Shown piece after piece: positions 37,852-50,087 of a stretch of 51,346 bases of DNA. The stretch is taken from contig NZ_WSFU01000068.1 of assembly GCF_016820635.1 (NCBI RefSeq), positions 1 through 51,346 of the forward strand, in the 5' to 3' direction. Under the pieces are notes generated by a model. The model saw only the letters and a list, made by a program, of their open reading frames with translations, was not told where the DNA came from and did no database searches. The position numbers and the translations under genes are program-made. Position 1 is the first letter of the stretch; every line of letters begins with the position of its first letter. This DNA comes from Anaeromonas gelatinilytica (GTDB lineage: Bacteria > Bacillota > Clostridia > Tissierellales > SIT17).

Positions 37852-38706
37852 TTATGTGTCTAATAGTGCATATTTTTCAATTGCAACCGCTACTCCACTC
37901 TCTTCATTCAACAATGTCACAGCATCTGCAGCACACTTTATTGCATCAGTTCCATTTTCCATAGCAATAGCTAGTCCTGCTGCATTTAACATTTCTATAT
38001 CATTATTACTATCACCACAAGCCATAACTTCTTCCATATATAATCCAAGATGTCCTGCCAACCGCCTTAAAGCAAAGCCCTTATTTGCATTTTTGTGATT
38101 AACCTCAAGATTATTATTTAATGAAGAGGTTATAGAAACTTCAGATATACTCTTTAATTTCATCTCTACATGACTTCTCATATTTAAATTTTGGAAAAAT
38201 AGATTTACTTTTTCTATATGTAATTTATCTACCTTTACAAGATCTAAAATATCATCCACACAAGTTCTCGTATCATAAATATATGGAATCATATTATCTG
38301 GAATTAAGAACTCATTAAGCCGTTTTATATTTCTATGTTCTGTAAATATTCTCCCTTCTGCAAATATATCTAAAATAGGATCTAAAGGACGCAAAGCTTC
38401 AATGATTTGAATAACTATTTCCTGCTTTAGATAGCAACTATATAATACTTTATCTTCTCTAAGATTTACCACAGCTGCCCCATTAGAACAGATAGCATAT
38501 TTAATGTCTTCATTCTTTAAGATTTCTTTAGGCATACCTGCCATCGGTCTTCCAGTAGCAGGAACAATAATAATACCTTTATTTATAGCCTGATTTAATA
38601 CTCTCTTGTTCTTTGCTGACAATGTCTTATCATCAGATAATAAAGTTCCATCCATATCAAGTGCTATAAGATTTACCTTTCTACCATTCTGCTTTTGTTC
38701 CATCAT
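37852..38706 (-). CDS. Cof-type HAD-IIB sugar-phosphate phosphatase
   Basis: A 284-residue HAD phosphatase. Motif I is LIALDMDGTLL (nucleophile and acid-base Asp), motif II is in VPATGRP, and the end holds GLYMEEVMACGDSNNDIEML (Lys/Asp motif). I choose ATG 38706 (GGAAG upstream); an in-frame codon 15 residues earlier lies deep inside the dehydratase gene. It overlaps the dehydratase end by 26 bases and is the last gene of the operon. It may remove phosphate from a stalled or excess sugar phosphate of the pathway. Confidence 0.9.
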   Translation of the reverse strand: MMEQKQNGRKVNLIALDMDGTLLSDDKTLSAKNKRVLNQAINKGIIIVPATGRPMAGMPKEILKNEDIKYAICSNGAAVVNLREDKVLYSCYLKQEIVIQIIEALRPLDPILDIFAEGRIFTEHRNIKRLNEFLIPDNMIPYIYDTRTCVDDILDLVKVDKLHIEKVNLFFQNLNMRSHVEMKLKSISEVSITSSLNNNLEVNHKNANKGFALRRLAGHLGLYMEEVMACGDSNNDIEMLNAAGLAIAMENGTDAIKCAADAVTLLNEESGVAVAIEKYALLDT

Positions 38707-39826
38707 AATTCTTCCAATTAGGATTAGACCATTGTAGTCCTTCTGCTGCAACTTCTTTCACCTTTTCCTCATCAATAATTAGACCTAAGCCAGGCTTATC
38801 TGGTAATCCAACAAATCCATCTTTATATTGGAATATCTCTTTATTCTCAACAAAATCAAGAAGATCAAAACCCTTATTATAATGAATTCCTAGTGATTGC
38901 TCTTGAATAAATACATTTGGACTACAAACATCCACTTGTAGAGTTGCAGCCAATGCTATTGGACCATAAGGTGCATGTGGTGCAGCTGCAATATCATAAG
39001 CTTCAGCCATAGCAATGATCTTTCTTGTTTCCAAAATACCACCAGTAAGTGCCACATCAGGCTGTATTATGTCTATATGTCCACTGCTCAATATGTTTTT
39101 AAACTCCCATCTAGTATATAATCTTTCACCAGTTGCTAGAGGAACTGTAACATGATCTGCTACTTGTTTAAAAGCTTCTTGATTTTCACTTAATACTACT
39201 TCCTCTAAGAACATAGGACGATATGATTCTAACTCCTTTGCCAAGACCTTAGCCATTGGTTTGTGTACTCTTCCATGAAAATCAATCCCTATATTTAAAT
39301 CCATACCGAATGTTTCACGAAGTGCTGCTACACGTTCTACAACTTCATCTATCTTTTTAAAGCTATCAATATAGTGTAGCTCTTCAGTTGCATTCATCTT
39401 AATAGAGTCAAATCCCCTATTTACTCTATCCCGTGCGTCATCAACTACATCACTTGGACGATCTCCTCCAATCCAAGAATATACTTTTATTCTATCTCTT
39501 GCTGAACCCCCAAGTAGCTCATAAACAGGTGCATTATAATATTTTCCTTTAATGTCCCATAAAGCCATCTCAAATCCTGAGATGATTGTCATATTAATAG
39601 GACCTCCCTTAAAGAATACACGATATAACTCTTGCCAAAGTTTTTCTATTTCTAATGGGTTACGTCCAATAATTCTTCTTGACATTTCATATGCTCCTGC
39701 TACAACAGTTTCAGTCTTTGTCCCTGACACCATCTCACCCCAGCCTTCAAACCCATTATTGGTAGTGATTTTTACAAATATCCATCTTGGTTTTACAGTA
39801 TATACCTTAACATCTGATATAATCAT
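38681..39826 (-). CDS. D-galactonate-dehydratase-like enolase-superfamily enzyme
   Basis: A 381-residue enzyme of the mandelate racemase subgroup, close in length and blocks to DgoD: GWGEMVSGTKTETV, FKGGPINM, GFEMALWDIKGKYYNAPVYELLGG, the Mg ligands in the region IGIDFHGRVHKPMAKVLAKEL and FLEEVV, the AGG-type LATGERLY, and the end AAPHAPYGPIA with the catalytic His. It removes water from a hexonate to give a 2-keto-3-deoxy acid. No kinase follows, so with a PTS in the operon its real substrate may be a 6-phosphohexonate. It is translationally close to the IIC gene upstream and overlaps the HAD gene. Confidence 0.88.
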   Translation of the reverse strand: MIISDVKVYTVKPRWIFVKITTNNGFEGWGEMVSGTKTETVVAGAYEMSRRIIGRNPLEIEKLWQELYRVFFKGGPINMTIISGFEMALWDIKGKYYNAPVYELLGGSARDRIKVYSWIGGDRPSDVVDDARDRVNRGFDSIKMNATEELHYIDSFKKIDEVVERVAALRETFGMDLNIGIDFHGRVHKPMAKVLAKELESYRPMFLEEVVLSENQEAFKQVADHVTVPLATGERLYTRWEFKNILSSGHIDIIQPDVALTGGILETRKIIAMAEAYDIAAAPHAPYGPIALAATLQVDVCSPNVFIQEQSLGIHYNKGFDLLDFVENKEIFQYKDGFVGLPDKPGLGLIIDEEKVKEVAAEGLQWSNPNWKNYDGTKAEW

Positions 39827-39893
39827 TTTTGACCATTCCTTCCCTAGCTGTAATTATAAAATACAATAAAATATTTACTTAAAATAACTTTCA

Positions 39894-41258
39894 TTATTTA
39901 TCTGATTGCTGTGAAGCTAAGATTTGTGTTCTTTTCTCGCTTAACTTCTTCATAAATACCCAAACACCTATCAATATAATTATAAGAATAGGAATACTGA
40001 TTACTAAATTGCTAATAAATGTTTTATATACAAGATAACTCACTGTCAAACTTGTTGCAGCAAATGAAGTTATTAAACCATCTCCAATATTAACACCTAC
40101 AGATGCGGCTAACTCTGTCAATACAGGTGCTGTTGCTGTACCCGCCAAAAGAACTGCTGCCATCGCAACAAGACCCATTACGATACTTTTAAATATGTTT
40201 CCACGAGCAATTGCCACTACCATTGCAACTCTGAACGTTACAACCGCTAAATCCGCAAATGGTAGTACACGGTTTCCTGGTAGTATTGATGCCATTGCTA
40301 TTGTTAATGGTATAATGATTAATGATGTTGTAATTACTTGCTCATTCCCTACAACAACTGCTGCATCAAGACCAATTAAGAAATTTCTACCTTTGAATCG
40401 AGTTTGCATAAAGTTCTGTGCTGCTTCTGAAATAGGCATTAATCCTTCCATAAACAGAGATGTCATCTTTGGAATCAATACCATTACTGCTGCCATACTA
40501 ACACCTAATCCAAGAATATCTGATATTGGATATTTTGCTAATATCCCAATAGCACCTCCAAGTATTAGCCCAATTACTGCTGGTTCTCCAAAGAATCCAA
40601 GATATTTCTGTACATCTTTAATATCAAAATTAATTTTATTAATTCCAGGAATTCTGTCTAATAGCCAATTTAATGGTGCTGCTATTATAACAGAAGATAA
40701 TGCTGACATGGTTGGAAGGGAAACCCCTGGGATTCCAAAGAAGTCTTCAACAAGTGGTGCTGTCCAGTCAGAGAGTTTAAATGTAACAATAGCCATAACT
40801 ACAGTTGCTAATATCCCCAATATAACGTTTTCCGTTACAAAATAAACCATAATTCCTACAATTGCCATATGATGATAGTTCCAAATATCAACGTCTAACG
40901 TATCAGTTGCTTTTAATAAAAGCATAATAATATTTGTTGCTAATATAGCAAAAATTAAAATTGCTATAATTGGTGAAGCCCATGTAACTGCTGCTATAGA
41001 GCCCCAGCCCACATCTATAATATCTAATTTAATACCAAAATTTTTAACCATTGCTTGTGCTGCTGGTCCAAGATTTTCTTTCATCATGTCAATAATCAAA
41101 AGGATCCCAGCAAAACCAATTCCAACTGTTAAGCCAGAACGAAATGCTCTTGATAATTTCAATCCAAATATCAATCCTACGATTGTAATTATAACTGGAA
41201 GTAAAACAGTTGCTCCAGCATCTAAAAGCAAATTAAATGCGTTATACATAAATTCCAT
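39894..41258 (-). CDS. gatC: PTS galactitol-type permease, IIC component
   Basis: A 454-residue membrane permease with about 10-12 segments, of the EIIC-Gat family. It begins YNAFNLLLDAGATVLLPVII, has GLKLSRAFRSGLTVGIGFAGI after segment 1, and VGVNIGDGLI near the end. It transports a polyol or hexonate that IIA and IIB phosphorylate. The start has GGAGGG. The substrate is probably a hexonate because of the linked enzymes, so the galactitol label reflects family only. Confidence 0.93.
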   Translation of the reverse strand: MEFMYNAFNLLLDAGATVLLPVIITIVGLIFGLKLSRAFRSGLTVGIGFAGILLIIDMMKENLGPAAQAMVKNFGIKLDIIDVGWGSIAAVTWASPIIAILIFAILATNIIMLLLKATDTLDVDIWNYHHMAIVGIMVYFVTENVILGILATVVMAIVTFKLSDWTAPLVEDFFGIPGVSLPTMSALSSVIIAAPLNWLLDRIPGINKINFDIKDVQKYLGFFGEPAVIGLILGGAIGILAKYPISDILGLGVSMAAVMVLIPKMTSLFMEGLMPISEAAQNFMQTRFKGRNFLIGLDAAVVVGNEQVITTSLIIIPLTIAMASILPGNRVLPFADLAVVTFRVAMVVAIARGNIFKSIVMGLVAMAAVLLAGTATAPVLTELAASVGVNIGDGLITSFAATSLTVSYLVYKTFISNLVISIPILIIILIGVWVFMKKLSEKRTQILASQQSDK

Positions 41259-41300
41259 TTGTGCATCCCTCCATATATTTTATTATTTCTATTCATATAA

Positions 41301-41576
41301 TTATTTCAAATAAGATAATATTTTTTCAAATATTTCTTCTTGTCCAATACCTGTTAATAGCGATATAGCTCCTACAATAGGTGTGGATATTTTCCCAACA
41401 TAATTTCCTGTTGTTACCACTAAATCATAATCTTCTGCTTTTGAAGGAACTTCTAATAACTTACATTGTGTTATCGTTGCTTGAATTCCTTCATCTGCTA
41501 ATCTGTCCTTAATCTTACTAGCTACAACTGTTGATGTTGCAATTCCATTCCCACATGCTACTAATACTTTTTTCAT
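41301..41576 (-). CDS. gatB: PTS galactitol-type IIB component
   Basis: A 91-residue IIB of the galactitol type. It begins MKKVLVACGNGIATSTVVA, where C8 is the phosphorylated cysteine, and contains VVTTGNYVGK. It passes phosphate from IIA to the incoming substrate at IIC. The length is typical. Confidence 0.95.
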   Translation of the reverse strand: MKKVLVACGNGIATSTVVASKIKDRLADEGIQATITQCKLLEVPSKAEDYDLVVTTGNYVGKISTPIVGAISLLTGIGQEEIFEKILSYLK

Positions 41577-41605
41577 TTTCTTTTCCTCCTATAATTTAAA
41601 TATTT

Positions 41606-42067
41606 TTATAATAATTGTTCTTTAATCACTTTATAAATTGTTTTTGAATTATTAGATTGAATAATCTCCTTTACTAATTTCTGATTCTGAATTAATTCTA
41701 TAACTTTTTGAAGCATGTTCACATGTCCATGTACTTCTGTTAATGCTAGCATAATAATAAGACTTACATCTATCTTCTTGCCTGGATTATCCATGGCATG
41801 AAATTTTACTGGATTTTCTAAAATCCCTACACAGATAGCTGCTTGGTTCACATGCTGTATATCAGTATGGGGAATAGCTATATTTATATTTCCTGTAAAC
41901 AAACCGGTTGGATATTCTTCTTCACGAGATAGAATTGCATTCTTATAAGTATCCTTTACCAACCCATGTTTACATAAATATTCTGCCAAGGTTGATAACA
42001 CTTCTGTATTGTTTTTTTCTTTATTTAGTTTTAGTATAAGTGATTTGTTAAATTTAATTTCGCTCAT
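41606..42067 (-). CDS. gatA: PTS IIA component, fructose/galactitol type
   Basis: A 153-residue EIIA type-2 domain with INIAIPHTDIQHV, H67 being the phosphorylated residue, and EEEYPTGLFTGN before it. It receives phosphate from HPr. It follows the aldolase gene by 22 bases and precedes IIB by 29 bases. Confidence 0.94.
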   Translation of the reverse strand: MSEIKFNKSLILKLNKEKNNTEVLSTLAEYLCKHGLVKDTYKNAILSREEEYPTGLFTGNINIAIPHTDIQHVNQAAICVGILENPVKFHAMDNPGKKIDVSLIIMLALTEVHGHVNMLQKVIELIQNQKLVKEIIQSNNSKTIYKVIKEQLL

Positions 42068-42089
42068 ATTGTCTCCTTTTCAATATTAC

Positions 42090-42707
42090 TTATTTTAATT
42101 TTGATTCAAAGTACTGAATGGATTCTCTTAATCCTTCTTCATTTTCATTTAATATATCTTCTTTTTTGAAAATACCTGTTCCTATTCCTACAAATTTTGC
42201 TCCTGCATCAAAATACTCCTGGACATTTTCAGCGTTGATTCCTCCAACAGCCATAATTGGAAATTCACCTAATGGTGCTTGAACATCAGAAATATACTTG
42301 CTTCCCAGCCTCGATGCTGGAAAAAGCTTTATAATATCAGCTTTAAGATCAAGAAGTGTTTTCATCTCAGTAGGTGAAAATGCTGCTGGAACAGATAAAA
42401 CATCATTTTTCCTACATAAATCGATTATTTCTTGACTTAACATTATTGGCGATAAGATAAACTTAACACCTTTTCTTATAGCTGCTTCTGCTTCTTGGTA
42501 GGTCATAATAGTACCTGCCCCTACTTGAATGAAATCGCCAAATTCATAATTAATCTTTTCTATTATGCTCAAAGCATTCGGCGTGTTCATAGTAATTTCA
42601 ACAGCTTGAAGTTTAGTACCTATCAGATTTTTTACAACCGTTCTGACTTGAGAATAATGATATCCTCTTAATATAATAGTAATTTTGGAAAATTTATTAA
42701 TATTCAT
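42090..42707 (-). CDS. 2-Dehydro-3-deoxy-6-phosphogalactonate/gluconate aldolase
   Basis: A 205-residue KDPG/KDPGal aldolase. R14 (LRGY), E37 (AVEITMNTP) and the Schiff-base K127 (DIIKLFPASRLG) are in place, with QVGAGTI and MAVGGINAENVQEYF for the phosphate site. It splits the keto-deoxy-phosphohexonate to pyruvate and glyceraldehyde 3-phosphate. It is the first gene of the operon, right behind the sigma-54 promoter. Galactonate versus gluconate isomer cannot be read from sequence. Confidence 0.92.
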   Translation of the reverse strand: MNINKFSKITIILRGYHYSQVRTVVKNLIGTKLQAVEITMNTPNALSIIEKINYEFGDFIQVGAGTIMTYQEAEAAIRKGVKFILSPIMLSQEIIDLCRKNDVLSVPAAFSPTEMKTLLDLKADIIKLFPASRLGSKYISDVQAPLGEFPIMAVGGINAENVQEYFDAGAKFVGIGTGIFKKEDILNENEEGLRESIQYFESKLK

Positions 42708-42736
42708 TTCAAAGCTCCTTCCTTGCCTTATAATAA

Positions 42737-42753
42737 AGCAAGAAAGGTGCCAA
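42737..42753 (-). promoter_or_regulatory. Sigma-54 promoter of the hexonate PTS operon
   Basis: TTGGCAC, five bases, TTGCT: a full match to the -24/-12 consensus, 30 bases before the aldolase ATG and touching the stop of the activator gene. It explains the presence of the LevR-type activator. Confidence 0.92.
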
Positions 42754-45717
42754 CTATTTGACTGGTTTTGTATTTATACACAAAATGTTTAAAATTTCTT
42801 CACTCGATTGGCTACTACGAATTGCAGAAAGTAAAGATTTATTAGAAATTATTGAATATAATTCATCAAAATATTTTTTTGAATTTTCATTAAGAGCCAA
42901 TACAAAAATAATATCTACAAAGTTCACTCCATCCCAAATAATAGGGTTGTCCAGTTTTGTGATAGATATGACTGGTTTTGTAACGAGTTCTGTATAACCA
43001 TGGGGAATAGCAATACCGCCTTCCAAATATGTGGTCATTTGACTTTCTCTTTTGTATACACTAAGTAAAAACTCTGGTTTCACATATCCATCCTTTATCA
43101 ATTTATTAATAGCATTATCTATCACTTCATCTTTATAAGTGTATCTAGGATTCACAAAAATATTTTCTGATTTAATGACTTCATTTAAATGATTTTCTTC
43201 AAATAAATTATGACGTTTAATCATTCTTTGTAATTTATCTAATCCTTGAGACTTAAATATTTCTGTTACAGATATAAAAGGATATCCCATGACTTGTGGA
43301 TCTATGGTCCCAACGACTGCAACAATTCGATAATTTTTTGCAATGGATTCAATAATATTTTCTACTTTTTCTCCTTCTATATATCCTTTGGTCAGTATAG
43401 TAATATTTTTTAAATCCTCTTCCAAATAAGTCCTAATGTGATTTCTTACTGTTTTTGCTACACCTTCTCCCGTGATACAAAGACAGAGGATTACATTTTG
43501 TTTGTCCTTATCTTTAAGCTCTTGATTGTTCTTTTCCTTTGTTTGTAAAGTTCCATTATTTTTTATATCAAGTTCCTCAGCTATTTGATCAAGAGATTTA
43601 GAAGTCCATAGCACTTTTCTAATAGCCTCTATTACCATAAGAGTATCAGCTCTTGCCACTATTCGTACTGAAATTCCAGTTTCTCTCTCAATCTTTCCTC
43701 CCATTGTTGTAAGAGAACCCATGTCTGCCAATATAAGGCATCCCTTTTCCTGGTCAATCTGCTTTACCACGTTTATTACTTTATCGATCATAGAAGAAGG
43801 AGAATCCTGAAAATTCATCTCTAGACCAACAGCATAATCTGTACCCATGATGGTATTTGCCGTTTCAGACATGCCACAAGCCACTTTACCATGGGATACG
43901 ACTAGCAGTCCTATCTTTTCTTTATTCATTTGACTGTGACTTTGAAAATTTTTAAAATACATTGCTAAAAATCCTATTTCCTCTTCTAAAAGATTAATAT
44001 AATATTTTTGTTGGATTATTTTTACTATTTTCTTTGCCACTGTATATTCTTTTGGGGATTGCTCACTAATTGCTTTTAAGTTTAAATTATTAATTCCCTT
44101 GTTACTTCTAACACGTTCCATAGCCATATTAATATGTATTGCTAGTGGGAAAATAATAGTATTTCTTAAAGAAGGTAACGACTTTTTAGCATTTTCATAG
44201 ATTTCTTTTGTAATATTAAGAATCTTATCTCCTACAATACTAGATACTTCTTGAAGACTAAATTTATAATTTTCTACATTCTTTATATATTTGGACAAAG
44301 TCTTTTCTAATTCCTGAGATAACACTCCACTAATTTTTGTTTTCGATATGCCCTGTCTTTTCATTTCCTCATATTTATAGTCTAATTCATCATATATATT
44401 CTTACTTCGCTCTATGGCTGATTGTTCATATACAATATTATCTTCCGGTGAATAGTAAATATCACTATAAATTAAATCATTTATTTCTTTTCTTACTAAT
44501 CTGTCATCATAACTTTCCTTTAATTCTTCTGACAAACTATCTAATCTTACTACAATAGTATCTTTATGTCTAATTTTCGCATCTAAAAATGCCTTAGCAC
44601 AGCATACTTGTATATCAGATTTTAGTTGTCCTAAATTCCCTTGGTACTCTGCATCTAACAGGCATTTAAGTACATCTTCTTTTACTTGAAGTTCGCAACC
44701 AATTCTTCTGCTTTCTGTCATGAAATTATTCTGAGTAAATTGAAGCTTCTCACTTAATGGTCGATCTTTAATTGGAGGAATTTCAATGAGCATAGGAATT
44801 CTTCTTCGAAATGTTAAAAGTAACGTGCTTTCAGGATTTTCTGTAGTAGCTCCAATGATCATCACAGTGCTTTTACGCTGAGTATCTATCTCTCCTAATC
44901 TTCTAAATTTTCCTTTGTCAATTAAATAAAAGAGCATTTCCTGTCCTTTAGGTGTTAATCTATGTATTTCATCTAAAAATAATATTCCTCCGTCACAAAA
45001 TTCTACAATTCCTGGTTTGTCTACTACTGCGCCAGTAAAAGCACCTTTATTGTATCCAAATAATTGAGTCAACAGTAATTGTGGGTTATCTGCATAATCA
45101 GCACAATTGAATTCATAAAAGGGGATATTTTCCCTATAATTACGAATTTTAACAGCATATTTGTACATCATTTCTGCTAAAAAGCTTTTACCTACACCAG
45201 ATGGACCATAAATTAAAGTGTGAAGACCGTAGGGTGGATATAATATAGCAGCTTTTGCTCTACTTATTTGACTTTTCATACTTCCATCGTATCCTATGAA
45301 TGCACTAAATATATCTGAAGCATTCTGAGATTTTTCCTTTAATGCCTTCTCACTGGAAGTCTCATCCTGAATCAAATCTAAATGTTTCTCTTTTTCTGTC
45401 TTTATGGGCTTAAATTCCTGTATTTCTTCTAATTCCTTTTTTAAACTTCCAATTACAAACTTCCCCACATCATAGCCCTGATCATTTAAAAGCCTTGTCA
45501 ATTTGCGCACAGATAGATCCCCATGCTCTTCTATTAATTTCTTAATATCTTGGACTAATAATCTATTTCTTCTTTCCCTAGAATTTTGTATATTATATTT
45601 ATTTCTTATAGTAGTTACATTCTCTCTAAATATACTAAGTTTTTTTGCAATCTGTTCATCACTTAAAGGATTTTTCTTATCTTCATTTTTAATTAATTGA
45701 ATTACCCTTTCTTCCAT
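42754..45717 (-). CDS. LevR-type sigma-54 activator with PRD and PTS domains
   Basis: A 987-residue activator. From the N-terminus: a DNA-binding region (about 1-90), sigma-54 AAA+ domain (about 130-400, Walker A GPSGVGKS near 171-178, GAFTGA near 225-230, Walker B GGILFLDEIH), PRD (about 470-590, with H528), EIIA-Man-like domain (about 600-710, with H609 in VVSHGKV), an EIIB-like region (about 740-840), and a second PRD/EIIA type-2-like end (about 850-985, with H906 in IAIPHG). PTS phosphorylation of these histidines should tie activity to substrate supply. I take the second ATG (45717) as start, with AAAGGA eight bases upstream; the ATG at 45726 abuts it. It activates the operon through the promoter at 42737. 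Confidence 0.93.
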   Translation of the reverse strand: MEERVIQLIKNEDKKNPLSDEQIAKKLSIFRENVTTIRNKYNIQNSRERRNRLLVQDIKKLIEEHGDLSVRKLTRLLNDQGYDVGKFVIGSLKKELEEIQEFKPIKTEKEKHLDLIQDETSSEKALKEKSQNASDIFSAFIGYDGSMKSQISRAKAAILYPPYGLHTLIYGPSGVGKSFLAEMMYKYAVKIRNYRENIPFYEFNCADYADNPQLLLTQLFGYNKGAFTGAVVDKPGIVEFCDGGILFLDEIHRLTPKGQEMLFYLIDKGKFRRLGEIDTQRKSTVMIIGATTENPESTLLLTFRRRIPMLIEIPPIKDRPLSEKLQFTQNNFMTESRRIGCELQVKEDVLKCLLDAEYQGNLGQLKSDIQVCCAKAFLDAKIRHKDTIVVRLDSLSEELKESYDDRLVRKEINDLIYSDIYYSPEDNIVYEQSAIERSKNIYDELDYKYEEMKRQGISKTKISGVLSQELEKTLSKYIKNVENYKFSLQEVSSIVGDKILNITKEIYENAKKSLPSLRNTIIFPLAIHINMAMERVRSNKGINNLNLKAISEQSPKEYTVAKKIVKIIQQKYYINLLEEEIGFLAMYFKNFQSHSQMNKEKIGLLVVSHGKVACGMSETANTIMGTDYAVGLEMNFQDSPSSMIDKVINVVKQIDQEKGCLILADMGSLTTMGGKIERETGISVRIVARADTLMVIEAIRKVLWTSKSLDQIAEELDIKNNGTLQTKEKNNQELKDKDKQNVILCLCITGEGVAKTVRNHIRTYLEEDLKNITILTKGYIEGEKVENIIESIAKNYRIVAVVGTIDPQVMGYPFISVTEIFKSQGLDKLQRMIKRHNLFEENHLNEVIKSENIFVNPRYTYKDEVIDNAINKLIKDGYVKPEFLLSVYKRESQMTTYLEGGIAIPHGYTELVTKPVISITKLDNPIIWDGVNFVDIIFVLALNENSKKYFDELYSIISNKSLLSAIRSSQSSEEILNILCINTKPVK

Positions 45718-45878
45718 ATCATCCATCCTTTCATAATAATAAAACTAAAATATCAGAAAAATGCAATAGATATTGTCGCATATGCCACTATTTTATTATA
45801 TAACAATTTTTCTTTTAAAGACTTTAAAACAATTTGTATATCTAAAAAATTCAATGATAAAAACTCTAGTATAAAAAA

Positions 45879-47110: not shown

Positions 47111-48121
47111 CTATTTATTTTTTAGTACCTCACCTTTTCTAAGATTTGCCCTCATCGTATTAATAATATCATCCATCTTTTCTAACTCTTTTAATATCCC
47201 TTTTTCTTCAGCACCTGTGTCTATTACTTTATGAATTCCACCATTTTTTATTACAATTCTTTTATCGGCCATAAGAGTTAAACTAGGATCATGGGTTGCC
47301 ATTAAAACAATTTTTTCTTCATTAACGAGAAGGTTTAGAGCTCTTTTTCTATCTATTCCTGCATTTTCTATTTCATCAATAAGAACTATAGGTGAAGTGC
47401 TTAATATTGCAGTATCTGCTATCATCAATGCTCTAGATTGTCCGCCACTTAAACCTGTAACTTGGGTATCTAAATCAAACTTTTCTCCTGCTAATTCATT
47501 TGCAGCTTCAATTATTTTCTTAATCACTTCTTCTTCGTTGTCTATCATTCTACTCTTTGCATGTAATTCTAAAAATTCTCTTACAGTTAAATCCATTATA
47601 AAATTCATGTTTTGAGATAATTGTGCAACTAGCTTATTACTTGTTGAAAATCTAAGGCTTTTATCAGGTATCTTACCATTTACAAGTATAACTCTCTCTG
47701 TAGGAGTATCTTTATTAGCAGCCCATTCTATATCTGCCAATAACCTACTTTTCCCAGCACCAGTTGGACCAACTATAGATACGATTTCACTCTTATTAAT
47801 AGTCAATTCTTCAAAATTTTCTTTGTTTCCATGTTTATCCTTGCCTGCAATTATGCTTATAGAATCAACTGTATCCTTTTCTAAACCTAAAAATTCAATC
47901 ATCTGATTAATATATGATTCTAAATCTAATTTTATCTTTTCAACATCTATTGCCCACTCTTCAATTTCTTCTTCTGTAAAATGATTTAAATATTCTTTTA
48001 ATGTATACTCTTCATATTCTTCTACATCTAGCTTATTATCTTGAAAAAAAGATAATATAAAAGGATATTGTTTCTCCAAATTTTTTATTTTTATAGATTC
48101 AAGTTCTTTTATTTTAACCAT
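47111..48121 (-). CDS. Soluble ABC ATPase with N-terminal helical domain
   Basis: A 336-residue cytosolic ATPase. The first 80 residues (YPFILSFFQDNKLDVEEYEEY, TLKEYLNHFTEEEIEEWAID) form a helical region resembling DUF1858/ScdA-N-type domains. The ATPase has Walker A GPTGAGKS (118-125), signature LSGGQSRAL (224-232), Walker B IVLIDE (245-250, with E250) and H277 in MATHD. It overlaps the GTPase gene stop by eight bases. No membrane subunit gene is near, so it is unlikely to be a conventional transporter part. It probably drives a conformational change in a partner, perhaps loading or releasing a metal or cofactor. Confidence 0.8.
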   Translation of the reverse strand: MVKIKELESIKIKNLEKQYPFILSFFQDNKLDVEEYEEYTLKEYLNHFTEEEIEEWAIDVEKIKLDLESYINQMIEFLGLEKDTVDSISIIAGKDKHGNKENFEELTINKSEIVSIVGPTGAGKSRLLADIEWAANKDTPTERVILVNGKIPDKSLRFSTSNKLVAQLSQNMNFIMDLTVREFLELHAKSRMIDNEEEVIKKIIEAANELAGEKFDLDTQVTGLSGGQSRALMIADTAILSTSPIVLIDEIENAGIDRKRALNLLVNEEKIVLMATHDPSLTLMADKRIVIKNGGIHKVIDTGAEEKGILKELEKMDDIINTMRANLRKGEVLKNK

Positions 48122-48815
48122 TTTTATCGCTCAACTCCATTTTCCTTACATTTCCCATTTGATACTCTTCTCCTATTCTAGTTTCACCTAAGCAATATGA
48201 GCATAATGCTGATGGCATTGGAAATTTTAATTGTCTATTGTTAACAGTTTCAATATTTTCATCTTCATCATATAAAAGAGTACTAAATTCAAAAGCTCCT
48301 TGTCCAGTTAAACCATTTACATGTATTGTTACTGCTTGTGGATTTACTGAATTAACTTTAGAGCCAAAAACTTCTCTCTCTGCTTGAGATACAATATCTC
48401 CTTTTGTTATAACGATAATATCTGCAGTTTTTAACATAGGTCCTATTTTTTTAGGAGTATTTATACCACTCAAATTATCTATTACACATATGGATTGGAT
48501 TCCTTTTAAATAAGGAGAACATCTATTACACAATCCCGCACTTTCAGTTATTAATAAATCTAAATTCTTTTTATTGCCCCATTTTACAACCTCTTCAATG
48601 TTACTTGCAAAATAATGATCTGGACATAGTGCCCCAGATAATCCCTTTCTAACAGGTACACCTGCCTTCTCATAAAGCTTATCATCATCTGTATATAAAC
48701 AATCAAATTTCACTACTCCTACTGATAATCCTCTTTTTTTAATAGCCTCTATGGTTTTTAATATTACAGAAGTTTTTCCTGAAGAAGGAGGGCCTGAGAC
48801 AGTTACTAAATTCAT
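48114..48815 (-). CDS. HypB/UreG-like GTPase with Cys pairs
   Basis: A 233-residue G3E-type GTPase. It has P-loop GPPSSGKT (8-15), a switch region LLITESAGL with E91, and an NKxD-like TKGD at 137-140. Extra cysteines stand out: C64 (ALCPDH), C96 and C99 (CNRC, directly after the switch), and C205 and C208 (CSYC). G3E proteins such as HypB, UreG and CobW load metals into enzymes. The Cys pairs near the switch suggest metal or Fe-S binding tied to GTP state. It lies between the substrate-binding-like protein (2-base gap) and the ABC ATPase (8-base overlap), so all three are co-translated. Confidence 0.8.
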   Translation of the reverse strand: MNLVTVSGPPSSGKTSVILKTIEAIKKRGLSVGVVKFDCLYTDDDKLYEKAGVPVRKGLSGALCPDHYFASNIEEVVKWGNKKNLDLLITESAGLCNRCSPYLKGIQSICVIDNLSGINTPKKIGPMLKTADIIVITKGDIVSQAEREVFGSKVNSVNPQAVTIHVNGLTGQGAFEFSTLLYDEDENIETVNNRQLKFPMPSALCSYCLGETRIGEEYQMGNVRKMELSDKNG

Positions 48816-48817
48816 AT

Positions 48818-50047
48818 TTATTTATCTCCCTTCACGACATCATTAAATATATTTTCACATTTTACTATTAAACCTGAAATATCATTATTCTCTATATAAT
48901 CCCAGCCTAACCACATATATTTATTTTCATCTGGAATCATATTATCAACATCAGGGTTAATACTTGGAAATTTCCCATTATGAGATAATATCTCTCCTAC
49001 TTCCTTTGAAGCAAAAAAGTTAACGATTGGTTTTAATTCTTCTTTTTTCTCCTTTTTGCTTAACATAAATATTGGACTTATTATAGCTCCATCCTTAGGC
49101 CATATAGGAGTCATAGGACCTCCCCTAGTAGTCATTTTGGTAAAGAAATACGGCATTATAGTAACTACTGGTTTTGCAAATTTCCTTCTATGGGATTTAA
49201 CCATTTCCGATGGATGCATACTTGTTTTTAATATCTTACCTAATTTTTTAATTCCTTCTTCACCATGTAACTTATAAATATTTAATAAGATCGCATTAAA
49301 TAAATCAAAATCTCCTATTGGTAAACTCACACTATTCTCAAATTCTGGTTGCAATAATTCTTCCCAACTTGTTGGTACTTCTCTTCCATTTAATTCTTCC
49401 TCATTTACTAAAAAGACAGCTGGTACAACCCCTAACATGGCATATTGATTATTAGGATCCTTTAAGTTTATATAATCATTATTAAAATCTTTATTATACT
49501 TCGTAAAATCTGTTATATCTTGAAATATATCTTTTCCTTTATATTTACCAAATAAATTTTTATCAAAAAATAAATCAAAACCTGCCGACATAAATATATC
49601 AGGAAGCTCTTTTTCTGTTTTCTCTTTTAAAATATCTTCTAACCAATCAACTCCTGAAGATGCAGCTTTTAGCTCATACTCTAAATTGAAATCCAAGTTT
49701 TTATCCTCTAACCATTTTTCAAAAGCTTCTGTTAAAGGTACTCTAACAGGACAAGGCAATACTCCAGTTATTTCTATAGAATCTTTTTCTTTAGATGATT
49801 GATTAATTTTATCTCCATTATTTTCAATTCTCTCTATTACTTGTGAAACAAAAGTATCAATATTAATTTTTTTTAGTTTTAAAGCATTTTCTAGTGAAAC
49901 GGATTTCCCAAATGATTTTCTCATATTATCATCTTTCATATTGTCAAATCCTACAGAAACTAATAATTCAATTGCTTCATCATATTTCTCAGTAATATCA
50001 TATAAAGTATCTTTTATATCAAAATATTTATTATCCAATCTCGCCAC
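48818..50047 (-). CDS. Cytosolic substrate-binding-fold protein with DUF1858-like domain
   Basis: A 409-residue protein without signal peptide or membrane segment. Residues about 5-70 match DUF1858 in pattern (a helical domain with a KSVSLENALKLKKINIDTF end). Residues about 90-405 look like a periplasmic binding protein of the iron/polyamine type (ELPDIFMSAG, VPTSWEELLQPEF, GDFDLFNAILLNI, SKEVGEIL). C99 in LPCPVRVPL is conserved-looking. Being inside the cell, it cannot be a normal import receptor. I take GTG 50047, with AAGGGAG before it, over GTG 50077, which lies at the transcription start. It is the first gene of the three-gene unit. The ligand is unknown; a metal or metallo-cofactor is a guess. 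Confidence 0.75.
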   Translation of the reverse strand: MARLDNKYFDIKDTLYDITEKYDEAIELLVSVGFDNMKDDNMRKSFGKSVSLENALKLKKINIDTFVSQVIERIENNGDKINQSSKEKDSIEITGVLPCPVRVPLTEAFEKWLEDKNLDFNLEYELKAASSGVDWLEDILKEKTEKELPDIFMSAGFDLFFDKNLFGKYKGKDIFQDITDFTKYNKDFNNDYINLKDPNNQYAMLGVVPAVFLVNEEELNGREVPTSWEELLQPEFENSVSLPIGDFDLFNAILLNIYKLHGEEGIKKLGKILKTSMHPSEMVKSHRRKFAKPVVTIMPYFFTKMTTRGGPMTPIWPKDGAIISPIFMLSKKEKKEELKPIVNFFASKEVGEILSHNGKFPSINPDVDNMIPDENKYMWLGWDYIENNDISGLIVKCENIFNDVVKGDK

Positions 50048-50087
50048 AATCTCCCTTCTCCATAAAATGGATTTCACATCTAATTGT

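Follow-up and report, generated by a model that had tools for sequence, protein, structure and literature searches.

A galactitol-type PTS operon of Anaeromonas gelatinilytica and a probable kinase-free route through hexonate 6-phosphate

Introduction

How could an operon that carries a galactonate-type dehydratase and a phospho-aldolase, and no sugar-acid kinase, form a complete catabolic route? The question is raised by a single minus-strand block (45726 to 37852) in a 51,346-nt stretch of Anaeromonas gelatinilytica DNA (contig NZ_WSFU01000068.1), hereafter the window. In order of transcription, the block carries an activator gene, a sigma-54 site, and genes for an aldolase, the IIA, IIB and IIC components of a phosphotransferase system (PTS), a DgoD-like dehydratase and a Cof-type HAD protein (Table 1). 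It resembles the DeLey-Doudoroff operon of Escherichia coli (dgoRKADT; L011 in our numbering of loci) in combining a dehydratase of the DgoD model with a valine-type 2-keto-3-deoxy-6-phosphogalactonate (KDPGal) aldolase. Unlike that operon it has no 2-keto-3-deoxygalactonate (KDGal) kinase, a PTS takes the place of the DgoT symporter and a sigma-54 activator that of DgoR, and a loop of the dehydratase is remodelled.

The initial annotation proposed that the PTS delivers a 6-phosphohexonate and that the dehydratase accepts it. The dehydratase clade, its loop and a survey of kinases all support this proposal; the chemistry itself we infer. We consider likely an Entner-Doudoroff-like route without a kinase, in which the hexonate would be phosphorylated as it enters, dehydrated as the 6-phosphate and then cleaved by the aldolase.

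Results

The dehydratase is linked to a galactitol-type PTS

Gene families were assigned by Pfam and NCBIfam model scores, which bore out the whole gene set first read from the sequence (PTS IIA, IIB and IIC, dehydratase, aldolase and activator). The dehydratase scored 602.7 bits against the DgoD model NF010624 (cut-off 311). IIC matched PF03611 with 281.9 bits and reached 439.4 bits with the galactitol-specific model TIGR00827, below its cut-off of 542.2; IIA and IIB likewise stayed under the cut-offs of the galactitol models. By its sequence the window IIC is galactitol-type without passing the galactitol-specific test. The phosphorylation sites named at the outset, His67 of IIA and Cys8 of IIB, proved correct and are kept across homologous operons in 35/36 rows (one gap) and 35/35 rows, respectively. 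PTS enzyme I is encoded in the same genome.

Of 398 genomes of the phylum that were searched, 39 had a dehydratase match at E ≤ 1e-40, among which three besides that of the window were 71-76% identical and eleven 55-61%; none was found in the three other genomes of the same genus that were searched. A contig scan of genomes yielded at least 80 loci. Thirty-five of these, at 66-78% identity, came from Enterococcus, Trichococcus, Streptococcus, lactobacilli, Thermoanaerobacter, Anaerococcus, Fusibacter, Coprothermobacter, Olsenella and others. From the full set we analysed 40 close loci, including the window and L143, from a conjugative plasmid of Enterococcus faecium. In 37 of the 40, a galactitol-type IIC is encoded no more than 7 kb from the dehydratase, and the three loci lacking it (L078, L087 and L089) are truncated by contig ends.

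The profile of the more distant kinase-linked group contrasts with this. Among the 21 of its 22 rows that were scored, no galactitol-type IIC was present, and a kinase was found within 7 kb in 11; several of the loci showing no nearby kinase have short flanks. The annotation of the remaining row, L147, shows no PTS. Annotated loci of this group have a symporter, ABC (ATP-binding cassette), TRAP (tripartite ATP-independent periplasmic) or MFS (major facilitator superfamily) transporter nearby, and one (L144, E. faecium, kinase-type) adjoins a lactose-type PTS.

Two plasmid loci may be mentioned separately. The conjugative E. faecium plasmid p17-318_1 (NZ_CP065771.1, L143) bears the PTS-linked operon, and its record has two dehydratase places. 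On a conjugative plasmid of E. faecium UW8175 (L144), the dgo set is kinase-linked and includes 2-dehydro-3-deoxygalactonokinase, whereas the dehydratase, with a shorter frame, is absent from the gene table.

No 2-keto-3-deoxygluconate or KDGal kinase is seen in the operons

As the initial annotation had stated, no kinase was found among the genes of the window operon or their Pfam and NCBIfam assignments. We extended the search to homologous operons, a check suggested with that claim, and saw no 2-keto-3-deoxygluconate or KDGal kinase in the 40, as far as sequence reaches. A PfkB gene within 7 kb in L092 stands beside a glycoside hydrolase family 32 gene, and another farther up the gene run of L084 belongs, by reading of its neighbours, to an ABC block of ribose type. 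We therefore did not score either gene as a KDGal kinase.

At the genome level, no DGOK-family match was detected anywhere in the genome of the window, which holds seven PfkB matches. One of these is a KdgK-like kinase (C135:829-1851) located away from the operon, beside an aldolase of the 2-keto-3-deoxy-6-phosphogluconate (KDPG) or threonine type. After this intact gene lies a 99-residue PfkB fragment (L059 2014-2313, on the same contig, G000:C135), apparently the remnant of a second kinase.

We then surveyed 35 genomes (that of the window, those behind 31 of the 35 close loci of the contig scan, and three more). A DGOK match was present in 2/35 and a relative of the local KdgK, at E ≤ 1e-30, in 16/35. 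Eighteen of the 35 have neither, and thus the route cannot generally depend on kinases of these two types. In those 18 genomes and that of the window, the KdgK model NF052444 exceeded its cut-off of 400 bits in 0/19.

A co-regulated kinase encoded elsewhere had been named as the finding that would overturn the proposal. No such co-regulation was seen for the local KdgK-like gene, which is partnered with its threonine-type aldolase. Its contig, which includes only 175 nt ahead of that operon, holds no sigma-54 site with zero or one mismatch, though it carries ten with two, more than in any of 200 shuffles.

PTS-linked dehydratases form a clade with a remodelled loop

A quick tree was first built from 81 dehydratases. 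All 38 PTS-linked rows fell into one group with a support of 100 (SH-aLRT, a Shimodaira-Hasegawa-like approximate likelihood ratio test), and the linkage label changed once, compared with 27.2 times in shuffles. A more careful tree of 69 rows, from which twelve long-branch, redundant or partial rows had been removed, gave the PTS-linked clade a support of 100/100. The fragments L089 and L091 were left out of both trees, as was L057, which yielded no dehydratase frame; L147, which yielded none either, was taken from its annotated coordinates.

Next we looked for switched columns, defined as those where a residue shared by 92% or more of the PTS rows occurs in no more than 10% of the kinase-group rows. 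There were 21, of which 12 fall within residues 1-105 (hypergeometric probability 0.003) and four within residues 34-38; the chance of a cluster as tight as the latter is about 0.01. Set against an explanation by the long stem of the clade, this enrichment is supportive and not a proof, as one clade only is involved.

At positions 34-38, PTS-linked enzymes carry Ser-Gly-Thr-Lys/Arg-Thr whereas kinase-linked ones have mostly Val-Glu-Gly-Arg-Ala. In place of the Glu35-Gly36 of the kinase-linked enzymes, Gly35 and Thr36 were found in 38/38 PTS-linked rows, together with Thr38 in 38/38 and Ser34 in 37. Kinase-group rows with residues in this region showed Glu35 in 20/20, Gly36 in 20/20 and Ala38 in 19/20, and the outgroup has glutamate (18/21) or aspartate (3/21) at position 35. 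The change in sequence is thus the loss of a glutamate and the gain of glycine, serine and threonine, with no new basic residue. By contrast with the loop, D182, H184, E208, E234 and H284 (window numbering), which we take to be the metal ligands and acid/base residues including the catalytic histidine, are unchanged in 38/38 PTS-linked, 22/22 kinase-group and 21/21 outgroup rows.

An AlphaFold model built from a 60-row alignment (predicted local distance difference test, pLDDT, 90.6; a four-sequence model with pLDDT 43 was set aside) placed the loop in the capping domain, between strand 27-32 (strand 3) and helix 38-49 (helix 1). A review assigns substrate specificity mainly to the N-terminal domain and locates the active site between the domains (PMC9795676). 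From its sequence and predicted position, Ser-Gly-Thr-Lys/Arg-Thr is a plausible phosphate grip. The nearest structure by VIA-align and Foldseek was 3rr1/3rra (Z 53), a classical PRK14017 enzyme with no substrate in its title, followed by other enolase-superfamily proteins including mannonate dehydratases; no title (shortened) among the best 50 fold matches per search names a phosphorylated hexonate.

The aldolase points to a galacto-configured product

The residue at the V154/T161 site contributes to the distinction between KDPGal and KDPG aldolases (PMC4915726). Each of the 37 operon aldolases examined has valine here, like DgoA of E. coli (L078, L089 and L143 stood outside this set). The window aldolase scored 128.1 bits with the KDPGal aldolase model NF006600, under its cut-off of 207, and has the valine at the stereo-determining site. 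Threonine was found instead in 6/7 kinase-linked loci with a PfkB-type kinase (L045 and L048-L052; valine in L055) and in the single aldolase copy examined of L148. Valine is present in L053, L144 and L151, the three loci other than that of E. coli whose kinase is DgoK-type. The second aldolase of the window genome is threonine-type, as is an additional one encoded in L074, at a distance of 7.7 kb from the dehydratase.

Since the aldolase is valine-type throughout the operons, the product would be of galacto configuration. Judged from this residue, the galacto configuration at C4 is favoured and D-galactonate is the likeliest substrate; as the configuration at C2 and C3 is lost, D-talonate, D-gulonate and D-idonate are possible as well. 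In its own substrate, the galactitol PTS phosphorylates the end equivalent to C6 of galactose, in keeping with a 6-phosphogalactonate.

A sigma-54 promoter goes with the LevR-type activator

A perfect sigma-54 promoter and a LevR-type activator had been proposed to complete the unit, and both are there. The promoter TTGGCAC-N5-TTGCT stands directly 3' of the activator stop codon, its TGGCAC starting 45 nt ahead of the aldolase ATG. It fits the consensus with no mismatch and is the sole such match to TGGCAC-N5-TTGCW in the window, where 13 sigma-54-like sites with up to two mismatches occur against 5.25 expected. RpoN is encoded in the genome. The activator belongs to the LevR/DagR family by its sigma-54 AAA+, PRD and EIIA domains and its -24/-12 target; its best equivalog, DagR (NF047795), was matched with 487.1 bits, under the cut-off of 1400.

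Across the homologous loci, a -24/-12 site precedes the first structural gene in 9/9 with a LevR-type activator (the window, L043, L044, L063, L064, L066, L068, L069 and L070; the activator of L044 runs past the end of the retrieved sequence) versus 0/23 with a BglG/MtlR-type regulator; L143, scored separately, also has a BglG/MtlR-type regulator and no site. The pattern is expected only about 0.008 times per 260 nt in these loci, so that the association is not due to chance, and it acts as an internal control. The site was also absent in loci where no first gene was in reach (L078, L081, L087 and L089) or no adjacent regulator was called (L074, L085 and L086).

Operon variants and alternative readings

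Related operons vary in their accessory genes. A phosphotriesterase-like gene tracks one IIC subtype, occurring in 9/9 such loci (L064, L066, L069, L070, L073, L079, L082, L083 and L086) versus 0/28 with other IIC types. Eight copies are full-length and keep the likely metal-site residues; that of L079 is an 80-residue stretch. The L082 copy scored 112.6 bits with the phospho-furanose lactonase model, far from its cut-off of 630. By similarity, the gene suggests that a lactone is imported as its phosphate in these operons. The one phosphotriesterase homologue in the window genome was considered as a lactonase for the operon and dropped, as it sits in another cluster.

These nine operons give some ground for supposing that the PTS takes up a hexonolactone or a different acid (e.g. 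a pentonate or an oxidised hexitol), a reading that keeps the order of phosphorylation and dehydration, overlaps the one we favour and departs from it in the substrate alone. For the window we hold it to be unlikely: no lactonase-like gene is found in its operon, and KDPG-family aldolases and the DgoD fold point, from what is known of these families, to six carbons.

Still less probable, in our estimate, is a classical DeLey-Doudoroff route in which the dehydratase uses an unphosphorylated hexonate entering by other means, a kinase elsewhere completes the pathway and the PTS imports an unrelated sugar. The KdgK-like gene of the window genome would be at hand for it, and the name of NF010624, galactonate dehydratase, agrees with it. 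Such a route is hard to reconcile with a galactitol-type IIC near the dehydratase in every uncut locus, with the 18 genomes devoid of DgoK or the local KdgK type, with the separate threonine-type aldolase of the local KdgK, and with a window operon in which no gene to metabolise another PTS sugar phosphate is seen.

We give very little credence to a third scheme, in which the HAD phosphatase strips the imported hexonate 6-phosphate and the dehydratase acts on the free acid: the HAD gene does overlap the window dehydratase gene, and four enterococcal operons (L060, L071, L104 and L143) run on into a histidine-phosphatase gene, but a HAD similar to that of the window or to YidA is near only 3/39 other loci (L081, L086 and L088), and removal of the phosphate would again demand a kinase ahead of the phospho-aldolase.

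Several observations weigh against phosphorylation on entry followed by direct dehydration. Seventeen of the 35 surveyed genomes, that of the window included, hold a candidate DgoK or KdgK-like kinase. Weaker NF052444/PfkB matches (74-132 bits) occur in 10 of the 19 genomes scored with that model, and given these an unusual kinase may exist in such genomes. One of these matches, at 108.5 bits, is in Enterococcus dispar (L104), a species with no hit to DgoK or to the local KdgK. In the careful tree, the placement of the PTS clade inside or beside the kinase-linked group is weakly supported (52/51). Position 37 of the loop is mostly basic in both groups (32 lysines and 6 arginines in PTS rows; 18 arginines, 1 lysine and 1 histidine in the kinase group). 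Finally, the IIC of L074 lies about 4.9 kb upstream of the dehydratase, beside a threonine-type aldolase and outside the contiguous gene run.

Features of the window

The span first assigned to the operon, 37852-45717, matches the gene block except at the activator, which starts at 45726, 45717 being an internal methionine. Missing from that description was the HAD gene, whose likely ATG at 38706 gives a 26-nt overlap with the 3' end of the dehydratase gene.

Table 1. Features of the PTS-linked dehydratase operon (window positions)
Feature	Position	Strand	Basis or domains
LevR/DagR-type transcriptional activator	42754-45726	-	sigma-54 AAA+, PRD, EIIA-man and C-terminal EIIA-2 domains
Sigma-54 (-24/-12) promoter, TTGGCAC-N5-TTGCT	42737-42753	-	pattern match
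KDPG/KDPGal-family aldolase, Val-type (KDPGal) stereo-determining residue	42090-42707	-	PF01081
PTS IIA, galactitol/fructose-type, phospho-His67	41606-42067	-	PTS_EIIA_2
PTS IIB, galactitol-type, phospho-Cys8	41301-41576	-	PTS_IIB
PTS IIC, EIIC-GAT family	39894-41258	-	PF03611
DgoD-like dehydratase, PTS-linked clade (proposed 6-phosphohexonate dehydratase)	38681-39826	-	NF010624
Dehydratase loop Ser-Gly-Thr-Lys-Thr, codons 34-38	39713-39727	-	alignment and model; position of Val-Glu-Gly-Arg-Ala
Cof-type HAD phosphatase, accessory	37852-38706	-	best equivalog YidA, under its cut-off

In E. coli (L011 8141-8953), the Cof-type phosphatase gene yidA, whose product is the best equivalog of the window HAD, is found near dgo. 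A small protein with no family match that appears to be membrane-bound (L060 11188-11727 and equivalents) follows the dehydratase in many Enterococcus-type operons, and precedes the histidine-phosphatase gene in the four enterococcal operons listed above. In L043 (4072-10386), L044, L074, L081, L085 and L088, the dehydratase occurs with a SAF/UxaA-type dehydratase, a 2-hydroxyacid dehydrogenase and a different galactitol-type PTS. Next to the operon, window positions 47111-50077 (minus strand) hold a cluster encoding a fusion of a solute-binding protein with DUF1858, a CobW-like GTPase and an ABC ATPase that is extended by some 100 residues at its N terminus.

Discussion

In the route we propose, the galactitol-type PTS would import a hexonate and release its 6-phosphate, and the dehydratase would take water from the phosphorylated acid to give KDPGal directly. 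By what is known of its family, the aldolase would then split this product into pyruvate and glyceraldehyde 3-phosphate. Site and domains are observed, and transcription would start at the sigma-54 promoter under control of the LevR-type activator, which presumably responds to PTS phosphorylation through its EIIA-like and PRD domains. The HAD phosphatase would be accessory and might serve to relieve an excess of sugar phosphate.

Parts of this scheme have counterparts in known systems. The IIA, IIB and EIIC-GAT families are shared with the galactitol PTS (GatABC), whose galactitol-phosphate dehydrogenase and tagatose aldolase genes are absent from the window operon. A 6-phosphohexonate is also dehydrated by 6-phosphogluconate dehydratase (Edd), an iron-sulphur enzyme of the IlvD/EDD family; it is unrelated to the enolase superfamily, to which the window dehydratase belongs. 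A like logic is known from the D-glucosaminate (dga) system of Salmonella, where PTS entry gives the 6-phosphate, a lyase forms a KDPG-type product and an aldolase follows, with no kinase (PMC9529869). Both are kinase-free and PTS-based, and DagR is the closest named regulator of the window activator; dga uses a mannose-family PTS and an ammonia-lyase, whereas the window has a galactitol-type PTS and an enolase-superfamily dehydratase.

A comparison of Enterococcus faecalis describes dgoD, PTS-Gat-EIIABC and eda as blood-specific and discusses the transporter in terms of galactitol metabolism and uptake (PMC6042284). We infer that this dgoD belongs to the PTS-linked clade. Among the titles and abstract openings listed from the open-licence literature, we found no description of the pathway under galactonate 6-phosphate, phosphogalactonate dehydratase or galactonate/hexonate PTS.

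Taken more broadly, the PTS-linked DgoD clade is probably a distinct family of hexonate (galactonate) 6-phosphate dehydratases, adapted through its loop and served by three PTS front ends: one for free hexonate, one for a lactone together with a phospholactonase, and a variant with the UxaA-type dehydratase and 2-hydroxyacid dehydrogenase genes. If so, the operon would represent a kinase-free branch of galactonate catabolism, and the enolase superfamily would gain, among its acid-sugar dehydratases, specificity for a phosphorylated substrate. The clade would also be misnamed, as both the NCBI model matched in the window and the plasmid record of L143 say galactonate dehydratase. The change in the loop would lend itself to testing cleanly how a phosphate site arises in an enzyme of this kind.

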